Below, piece after piece: positions 38,418 through 53,094 of a stretch of DNA of 64,000 nucleotides (the stretch's first letter is position 1; each line of letters begins with the position of its first letter). A program made the position numbers and the translations under genes. The stretch is from Halorhabdus rudnickae (GTDB lineage Archaea; Halobacteriota; Halobacteria; Halobacteriales; Haloarculaceae). Under the pieces are notes generated by a model, which saw only the letters and a list, made by a program, of their open reading frames with translations, was not told the DNA's origin and did no database searches. Location of the stretch: NCBI RefSeq assembly GCF_900880625.1, contig NZ_CAAHFB010000006.1, forward strand, positions 62,001 through 126,000, given 5' to 3'.

Positions 38418-38439
38418 CGCCGAGGGAGCGATTTGAACA
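38418..38439 (-). repeat. Third (most distal) copy of the tRNA-Ser 3' end
   Basis: Twenty-two nt that match the acceptor/T-arm end of tRNA-Ser(CGA) with three mismatches (CGCCGAGGG then AGCG then ATTTGAAC on the plus strand). It is 153 bp from the next copy, and the unit also contains an inverted GTTCAAATCTCC at 38489-38500. Confidence 0.75.
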
Positions 38440-38570
38440 ACGCGGTCACGGTCCTGCTCACTTCGTTGCGCGGGCTGCGTGCCCTCTCGTTCAAATCTCC
38501 ATGTGCCGTTTTCGCGACCGAGTGCTCGCGACACGCAATGCGGTCGCTCACGGATTGAAATCGCGAAAAA

Positions 38571-38592
38571 CGCCGAGGGGGAGATTTGAACT
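38571..38592 (-). repeat. Second copy of the tRNA-Ser 3' end
   Basis: Identical over 22 nt to the 3' end of tRNA-Ser(CGA). It is 121 bp from the proximal copy. The unit contains an inverted GTTCAAACTCC at about 38641-38651. The rest of a tRNA is absent. Confidence 0.85.
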
Positions 38593-38691
38593 CCACTCAC
38601 TCCCGTTCGCTCCCGGTGGTCGCTCACCTCCCGCTCGAACGTTCAAACTCCCGCGTTGGACAACTTCCTCACGTCTGTTCGGAAGGAGAAG

Positions 38692-38713
38692 CGCCGAGGG
38701 GGAGATTTGAACT
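38692..38713 (-). repeat. First copy of the tRNA-Ser 3' end
   Basis: Identical over 22 nt to the tRNA-Ser(CGA) 3' end, and over 28 nt if the shared GAGAAG beyond the tRNA end is included. It is 132 bp from the functional gene. Its unit contains an inverted CCAAATCTCCC at about 38745-38755. Confidence 0.85.
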
Positions 38714-38779
38714 ACGCGAATCTCGCTTTGCTCGATTCTCTCATCCAAATCTCCCGTGACGACGATACGCTGTCACGGA

Positions 38780-38805
38780 CGCGAGAGCGATAAAACGCTC
38801 TCGCG
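38780..38805. repeat. Hairpin downstream of tRNA-Ser
   Basis: Perfect 10-bp stem CGCGAGAGCG / CGCTCTCGCG with a six-base loop ATAAAA (TTTTAT in the tRNA's direction). It is 19 bp beyond the tRNA 3' end, so it may help termination or processing, or be part of the repeated unit. Confidence 0.7.
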
Positions 38806-38823
38806 AGGTTGTGACGTGAGAAG

Positions 38824-38908
38824 CGCCGAGGGGGAGATTTGAACTCCCGAGTCCGTGAGGACACCTGCTCTCGAGGCAGGCGCCTTGGCCAGGCTAGGCT
38901 ACCTCGGC
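38824..38908 (-). tRNA. tRNA-Ser (CGA)
   Basis: An 85-nt class II tRNA. The acceptor stem GCCGAGG/CCTCGGC pairs fully, the anticodon stem CCTGC/GCAGG encloses loop CTCGAGA with anticodon CGA (plus-strand 38871-38873), a long variable arm follows (GTGTCCTCACGGACTC), and the T arm is GGGAGTTCAAATCTCCC. Discriminator G. No intron, CCA not encoded. Its 3' end is copied three times downstream. Confidence 0.97.
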
Positions 38909-38989: not shown

Positions 38990-39227
38990 ATGGATAACAG
39001 CGAGGCGAGCGAGACCTGCGATCGCCACCTCGCGGAACTCGAGTCGGCGATTATCACCGATCGGGAGTTCCTCGAAACCGTCCTGCTGGGCGTACTCGGT
39101 CGCGGAACGTCCCGCTGGAAGACGTCCCCGGGACCGGCAAGACCCTCACTGCCCGGAGTCCAGCGGCGACGTTTGACCGCTCCTTTTCGCGAATACAGTT
39201 CACCCCGGACCTGCTTCCCGCCGACGT
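38990..39227 (+). pseudogene. MoxR-type AAA ATPase, truncated and frameshifted
   Basis: [20 protein letters not shown] leads to [13 protein letters not shown]. After a missing base near 39105 the next frame reads [17 protein letters not shown] (Walker A) and then [15 protein letters not shown], all typical of the N-terminus of MoxR ATPases. The remaining 200 or more residues are absent. It is a remnant, not a functional gene. Confidence 0.8.
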
Positions 39228-39322
39228 AAGCGCGAGGACAGCGAGTACCCCAATCATCAGAATTCCGGCCGTCCGACGATCGGTTATACGGGTCGTGACT
39301 TGGCTGGCGCCGACTTTGTGTG

Positions 39323-52973: not shown

Positions 52974-53033
52974 AGTAAACAGGCGATTAGCTGTCTGTCG
53001 TACTTCGGCAGGAAACCAAGTCCGCCCTCCCCG
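52973..53033 (+). repeat. attR: 61-bp direct repeat overlapping tRNA-Tyr
   Basis: Partner of the repeat at 46033-46093. Positions 53021-53033 are the last 13 nt of tRNA-Tyr; the remaining 48 bp are its downstream flank, including the hairpin-prone CTGTCTGTCGTACTTCGGCAG. Confidence 0.9.
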
Positions 53034-53094
53034 ATTTGAACGGGGGGCAAGTCGATCTACAGTCGACTGCTCTACCAGTCTGAGCTAAGGGCGG
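53021..53094 (-). tRNA. tRNA-Tyr (GTA)
   Basis: 74 nt. Acceptor CCGCCCT/AGGGCGG with discriminator A, D arm AGCTCAGACTGGTAGAGCA, anticodon loop CTGTAGA with anticodon GTA (plus-strand 53058-53060), T arm CCCCCGTTCAAATCGGGG. No intron visible, CCA not encoded. Integration site of the mobile element; the gene remains intact. Confidence 0.97.

Follow-up and report, generated by a model that had tools for sequence, protein, structure and literature searches.

Tandem hairpin units behind tRNA genes of Halobacteriales resemble a previously undescribed kind of miniature mobile element

Described systems and the tRNA-end units

tRNA genes are classical landing sites of integrative elements, and the known ones are large and bear their own enzymes. 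In integrons, an array of small cassettes grows from a fixed site, and the attC site is an imperfect hairpin with an internal loop, of which one strand is favoured. In the archaea, the SNJ2 tyrosine integrase uses a 14-nt site at the tRNA end (PMC8371274), and the target-site duplication of casposons measures 14–15 bp, of which no more than the final 4 bp of the tRNA belong to the gene and the rest to the flank (PMC6977970). The SMR-A repeats of Haloquadratum are ~110 bp long, lack a transposase gene, have inverted arms and occur in many copies; their mobilisation is unexplained, and they insert into the near-terminal palindromes of IS605-type elements or PATEs without target duplication (PMC3119063).

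Here we describe short units that stand in tandem behind a tRNA-Ser(CGA) gene of Halorhabdus rudnickae. In the open-access literature we found no description of them; only papers on SMR, PATEs, casposons and tyrosine recombinases were relevant.

Like SMR-A, the units are small (median 130 bp), transposase-free, haloarchaeal and equipped with inverted arms. They differ in that they duplicate ~22 nt of the tRNA, whereas SMR-A duplicates nothing, and in that they lie behind tRNAs (of 61 covariance-model matches, 57 are behind intact tRNAs and 3 beside truncated copies) and not in IS605 or PATE palindromes. Additionally, they form polar arrays and their arms match the host. Since SMR-A has a different target and no target duplication, the units do not belong to that family by the tests made; the two may be part of the same story.

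The elements of tyrosine integrases also target and restore the tRNA 3′ end and leave the displaced copy at the distal end, as seen in our pairs of empty and filled sites. However, they span kilobases and encode an integrase, whereas the units are 65–306 bp long and non-coding, and one of their arms pairs with the tRNA end. With casposons the units share the archaeal host, insertion at tRNA 3′ ends and a short direct duplication. The copy in the units, however, runs from position −22 to the discriminator base, while the casposon duplication lies mostly outside the tRNA; moreover, casposons encode Cas1 and have terminal inverted repeats, whereas the units are too short for a protein and their arms are internal.

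The likeness to integrons lies in an array built from one fixed site, a conserved imperfect hairpin and a strand-favoured structure. Yet attC ends are RYYYAAC/GTTRRRY and those of the units are GATTTGAAC/GTTCAAATC, the units carry no gene and have no linked integron integrase (linkage was not searched systematically), and their fixed site is a tRNA gene. Finally, MITEs, PATEs and REPINs are small, non-autonomous and palindromic as well (PMC3119063, PMC3116915), but they are dispersed throughout the genome, in contrast to the units, which are tied to tRNA ends and tailored to them; all 32 places with their hairpin pattern are beside tRNA genes or a truncated tRNA-Val copy. The units have the appearance of a kind of miniature mobile element that had not been described before. 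It is worth stressing that the basis of this claim of newness is that the units failed the membership tests for the families compared, and not a proven new mechanism.

The tRNA-Ser(CGA) array and the fold of its units

The window, i.e. the whole stretch of 64,000 nucleotides that was analysed, contains the following features at the tRNA-Ser(CGA) locus.

38824–38908, minus strand: intact tRNA-Ser(CGA), the insertion target (ARAGORN and Rfam RF00005)
38692–38823, minus strand: unit 1, 132 bp, tRNA-proximal, ending in an exact tRNA-end copy; weak R1 match, 28 bits
38756–38823, minus strand: unit 1, hairpin 1 and linker; fold −28 kcal/mol, z −5.2
38745–38755, minus strand: unit 1, left arm GGGAGATTTGG (inverted partial copy CCAAATCTCCC), by sequence complementary to T-loop and T-stem; hairpin z −4.9
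38692–38713, minus strand: unit 1, right arm, equal to the last 22 nt of the tRNA; 0 mismatches in 20
38571–38691, minus strand: unit 2, 121 bp, with a core from another family and no R1 match
38654–38691, minus strand: unit 2, hairpin 1 and linker in the short form CTTCC-GA-AC..GT-GA-GGAAG, by sequence; −7.8 kcal/mol, shuffles not beaten
38641–38653, minus strand: unit 2, left arm CGGGAGTTTGAAC (inverted partial copy GTTCAAACTCCCG), by sequence
38571–38592, minus strand: unit 2, right arm, tRNA-end copy; 0 mismatches in 20
38418–38570, minus strand: unit 3, 153 bp, distal and oldest; R1 match across the hairpin, 58.6 bits, E 4.7e-13
38501–38570, minus strand: unit 3, hairpin 1 and linker; fold −25.8 kcal/mol, z −1.6
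38489–38500, minus strand: unit 3, left arm GGAGATTTGAAC (exact inverted copy GTTCAAATCTCC), an inverted repeat
38440–38488, minus strand: unit 3, core hairpin of the CGCAGCCCGCGCAACGAAGTGAGCAGGACCGT type, a class-wide core family (R1 alignment)
38418–38439, minus strand: unit 3, right arm, an older tRNA-end form (T-stem CGCTC); 2 mismatches in 20

The first-pass annotation of this DNA had reported three copies of the tRNA-Ser end, two of them exact, downstream of an intact gene. We recovered them at exactly the spacings that it gave (132, 121 and 153 bp), with 0, 0 and 2 mismatches against the last 20 nt, and both ARAGORN and Rfam agree that the gene is intact. The inverted partial copy that it ascribed to each unit is present in all three (38489–38500, 38641–38653 and 38745–38755). 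Its view that every unit can fold on itself holds, as regards a strong hairpin, for units 1 and 3, whose hairpins beat shuffled sequences (z −4.9 and −2.4), but not for unit 2 (z −0.5). Absent from it were the host-tailored left arm, the core common to different tRNA types and the family extending throughout Halobacteriales. Two exact 20-nt repeats within ~500 bp at tRNA-Ser(CGA) exclude chance. The T-stem CGCTC of the distal copy is the one found in the present-day tRNA-Ser(CGA) of a relative (G004).

Upstream of the tRNA, only a truncated, frame-disrupted 5′ remnant of a MoxR-like AAA ATPase gene is left (38991–39235, plus strand); the gene is open at the same place in relatives (L005, L006). 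The end of the other tRNA gene in the window, tRNA-Tyr(GTA) (53020–53094, minus strand), is not copied downstream, and its G004 orthologue has two copies.

On the tRNA-sense strand, a unit consists of hairpin 1 with a short linker, the left arm, a conserved core hairpin and the host tRNA end, in this order. The left arm is complementary to the T-loop and the 3′ strand of the T-stem of the host, and the right arm is host tRNA sequence from the T-loop through the discriminator base. At the tRNA-Ser(CGA) locus of another genus, three tandem units of 69–73 bp lack hairpin 1; the minimal unit is therefore arms plus core.

We also observed a second, minority type of element (type II), which copies only the 3′ strand of the T-stem and the acceptor end (~13–16 nt). 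The partner of its left arm is the acceptor rather than the T-loop, and this type occurs behind Gly, Arg, Ala and Ser-GGA tRNAs (G000, G003, G004). A right-arm variant with one extra T-loop base, TTCACAATC, recurs in many units, e.g., at Pro, Met and Asp tRNAs (L182, L186, L204). Drift of the individual tRNA copies can hardly account for this variant, since it is found behind several unrelated tRNAs.

Covariation in the core was measured on 97 non-redundant units from the whole order. Two positions of the core stem pair in 98% and 97% of units, compared with 44% and 50% when partners are shuffled. Double changes numbered 50 and 56 at these two pairs, and 39 and 41 at two more in the upper stem; an independent count also revealed compensatory change in the core stem. 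The nearly invariant motifs AGUCGCAGC and ACCGUCU/AACGUCU pair into a stem that contains a U-U mismatch and a 3x2 internal loop; at its tip, the core hairpin has a GA/GA internal loop, two base pairs and a GNA loop.

With RNA energies, the tRNA-sense strand folds better than the antisense strand in 58 of 76 units (p = 3e-5); DNA energies give 54 of 76. At the four inner T-stem positions, left arms form 189 of 304 possible pairs with their own hosts, against 126.5 ± 6.6 when shuffled within T-loop type, and where hosts have unusual T-loops the matching change is usually present in the left arm. G-T wobbles in the arms outnumber A-C mismatches (34 vs 21), but these counts are dominated by one end position and were therefore not taken as evidence on the strand. 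Core covariation, the sense-strand bias and the tracking of the host by the left arm mean that selection has acted on a folded single strand, and RNA and single-stranded DNA cannot be distinguished here.

At the window locus, Rfam recognised only the tRNA and one sX4 match far below cut-off, and no Rfam family matched the related loci. The identities of K-turn, H/ACA and C/D RNAs were considered and dropped as their defining boxes are missing.

The main rival to a mobile element is a functional structured RNA family, which we consider unlikely without being able to set it aside. The units would then be tRNA trailers or sRNAs that arise from readthrough of the tRNA promoter, with the hairpin kept for an RNA function (protein binding, or control of 3′ processing via T-arm pairing), and the arrays would be merely unstable and change through recombination. 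The order-wide compensatory changes with the invariant core motifs (AGUCGCAGC / ACCGUCU), the structure favoured on the tRNA-sense strand and the covariation of the left arm with the host T-arm are all in keeping with such a family. However, a single-stranded DNA intermediate would give equal covariation and strand bias, and in the absence of transcript data the covariation fits the RNA and mobile readings equally. Moreover, around half of the tRNAs have no units and close species differ at the same tRNA. Thus, no unit is essential, which counts against an RNA family.

Distribution, insertion sites and array growth

Recurrence of the tRNA's own end was scored in five genomes of the genus as a match to the last 20 nt with at most 4 mismatches within 450 bp of the tRNA; G003 was sampled at 30 tRNAs only and G000 as stretches around tRNAs. 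The own end recurred downstream at 94 of 198 loci and upstream at 0 of 198, and in control trials the ends of other tRNAs recurred downstream in 51 of 2996. An occupied tRNA has one to four cassettes, mostly ~65–200 bp long, directly behind the gene, and nearly all amino-acid types are represented in the genus.

In three genomes, the inverted T-loop arm pattern gave 32 places, and its reversed control gave 0; two of the places adjoin a truncated tRNA-Val copy and the others tRNA genes. The core pattern occurs at 71 haloarchaeal places in named genomes, 64 of which follow a same-strand tRNA at a distance of ~310 nt or less; its 13 bacterial matches, none of them with a tRNA, look like chance. 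A covariance model of the hairpin, built from 34 units, has matches in 18 of the 19 Halobacteriales genomes searched, but gave no match in 101 further genomes of the phylum. Among 61 model matches in five Halobacteriales genomes, 57 lie behind an intact tRNA, 3 behind a truncated copy and 1 elsewhere. The window array is one case of a general tRNA-linked feature across Halobacteriales.

The core hairpin without tRNA arms is also an optional extra hairpin in a ~115-bp sequence on haloarchaeal plasmids (122 records). This plasmid sequence is non-coding, up to 95–97% conserved, predicted to fold into a single long hairpin and without an Rfam match; copies exist in a short form (L413 3001–3116, L414, L415) and in longer ones (L396, L397, L400, L416–L418), and some carry extra hairpins, including the tRNA-unit core, at the inner junction. 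Chromosomal structured repeats with the motifs GGCTGGGGAGG..TGAGG and GGGACTGAAAGGGGC (L419–L434) have the same core hairpin without tRNA arms and likewise have no Rfam match.

Two loci with truncated tRNA copies deserve mention. Outside the window, at G000:C6:219300-220600 (L295), a truncated tRNA-Val copy is followed by two hairpin units and lies beside an apparent integrase gene, ~11 kb from the intact tRNA-Val(GAC) and in opposite orientation; it is perhaps an integrated element that was later inverted. At G091:C1:113137-121460 (L313), ~8 kb separate tRNA-Gly from its truncated copy, and a hairpin unit stands behind that copy; the older array seems to have been displaced when a larger element inserted at tRNA-Gly.

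Between sister species, the same tRNA is found with and without units, and the flank begins at the identical base. For example, tRNA-Pro(TGG) is empty in G006 and has one 127-bp unit in G004, with a flank identical at 100 of 100 positions. Further pairs of empty and filled sites were found for Ser-CGA, Glu-CTC, Lys-CTT, Ile-GAT, Gly-CCC, Ala-GGC, Met, Leu-TAA and others. The copied segment of ~22 nt starts at −22 and stops at the discriminator, and its left edge is sharp (−25 to −21 from the tRNA end); the last 20 nt had been a selection criterion, the edge had not.

Where species have a unit in common, the extra units are tRNA-proximal in seven tRNA types, namely Asn-GTT, Arg-CCG, Gly-GCC (G006 vs G004), Ser-TGA, Val-TAC (G005 vs G004), Met and Ala-GGC. 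At Leu-TAG, Gln-TTG and Gly-TCC, the proximal unit is common to the species and the distal part differs, perhaps because old copies have decayed. In 25 of 45 arrays the last copy is more diverged from the present tRNA than the first, and in 2 it is less so (p = 1e-4). Since extra units are mostly proximal, distal copies are more diverged and the distal copy in the window keeps an older T-stem, the arrays look, as far as sequence comparison can tell, like time-ordered insertion records that grow from the tRNA side.

The exact empty sites in sister species support the proposal of the first-pass annotation that tiny insertions repeatedly restored the tRNA 3′ end. So do the variable copy number, the fact that most tRNA types are affected and the usual position of extra units next to the tRNA. 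The same arrangement in all relatives, or the lack of units at any other tRNA end, would have refuted the proposal, and neither was found: copy number differs among relatives and many other tRNA ends have units.

It is improbable, in our judgement, that the arrays arose without dedicated mobility, i.e. through template switching, unequal crossing-over and gene conversion together with homologous exchange between strains. In agreement with such an origin, 10% of pairs at the same tRNA in different genomes have a core similarity of at least 0.8, compared with 0.5–0.8% otherwise, and modules are shuffled at the arms, with hairpin 1 and core swapped independently at Val-TAC, Glu-TTC and Ser-TGA. 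Speaking against it are exact first insertions at empty tRNA ends, near-identical cores at different tRNA types (Arg-CCG vs Lys-TTT in G004, 0.94), the same core hairpin outside tRNA loci and extra units that are usually proximal.

Insertion of the cassette by a Cas1-like or casposase-like enzyme, with the tRNA-end copy as target-site duplication and CRISPR-like growth, would explain the polar arrays with one repeat duplicated per insertion, and casposases do target tRNA 3′ ends (PMC6977970), but we consider it highly improbable: the ~22 nt copy stops at the discriminator, unlike the 14–15 bp casposon duplication of the last 4 bp of the tRNA plus flank, and the outer ends of the insert have no terminal inverted repeat. 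The alternative raised in the first-pass annotation, an att-site array left by larger, excised integrative elements, is scarcely tenable despite the truncated tRNA-Val copy beside an apparent integrase gene and the truncated tRNA copies in other genomes, because the intervals between copies are a conserved, covarying hairpin and not leftover or random flank, and the truncated tRNA-Val and tRNA-Gly copies reach past the T-arm (~29 nt or more), and the hairpin arrays have been displaced to positions farther out.

A possible route of movement and its meaning

Exact insertion sites, copy-number variation, the ~22 nt duplication, the conserved hairpin and the link to tRNA genes across Halobacteriales are observations. 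The reading that we prefer, with a probability of about 0.5, is an inference from them: the units would be mobile hairpin cassettes, non-autonomous and without coding capacity, whose insertion site is the 3′ part of tRNA genes. That they move is inferred solely from interspecies comparison. No recombinase, circular form or live transposition was seen, and this counts against mobile cassettes, as do the distal-only differences at Leu-TAG, Gln-TTG and Gly-TCC and, as described below, the clustering of similar cores by tRNA type, the swapping of acceptor ends and the separate exchange of hairpin 1 and core.

Each insertion of such a cassette would regenerate the tRNA 3′ end and displace the former end outward, so arrays would grow mostly from the tRNA side. 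Since the cassettes encode nothing, we infer that the enzyme comes from elsewhere, namely that a still unidentified recombinase acts in trans on the tRNA gene, in its T-arm or at its 3′ end; the nearest candidates would be SNJ2-type tyrosine integrases. The cassette is presumed to be recognised as a folded single strand. A length of 65–150 bp is very small for a double-stranded circle, one of 70–130 bp would be very stiff, and the conserved structure is strand-specific, which makes a folded single-strand intermediate likelier. A phage vehicle was considered and rejected, as no phage match was found and the second pattern gave 0 viral matches (the short pattern gave 9 matches to viral contigs, which were not inspected).

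As similar cores cluster by tRNA type across genomes, cassettes would be exchanged mostly between orthologous tRNA genes of different strains and would rarely change tRNA type. We saw no sign of a recent intragenomic burst across tRNA types, and similar cores are not clustered within a genome. If a cassette jumped to another tRNA type by a recombinase crossover in the T-loop, the acceptor ends would be swapped, so a further step is required for movement across types. The separate exchange of hairpin 1 and core shows that the arrays are shaped by ordinary recombination at the arms as well.

A more far-reaching form of the mobile reading remains tentative, and we would not rely on it: the mobile element itself could be a folded single strand, either ssDNA or RNA, whose own arm is adapted to each host tRNA. 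The left arm would be copied from, or co-evolve with, the T-arm of the tRNA that is entered. With an arm that adapts to the host, one core family could spread to almost all tRNA genes and form at each of them an array ordered by time. The hairpin module might also be able to enter other structured sequences, e.g., the conserved plasmid element. If this is true, the element would represent hairpin transposons of a class that has no known counterpart.

In the genomes examined, stacks of tiny hairpin cassettes stand at about half of the tRNA genes, and the order Halobacteriales includes the laboratory models Haloferax and Halobacterium. If the cassettes are mobile, they would reveal an unrecognised recombination system and a readable, time-ordered record of insertions at each tRNA. 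If they are instead transcribed, they would represent a large unrecognised family of tRNA-linked structured RNAs.
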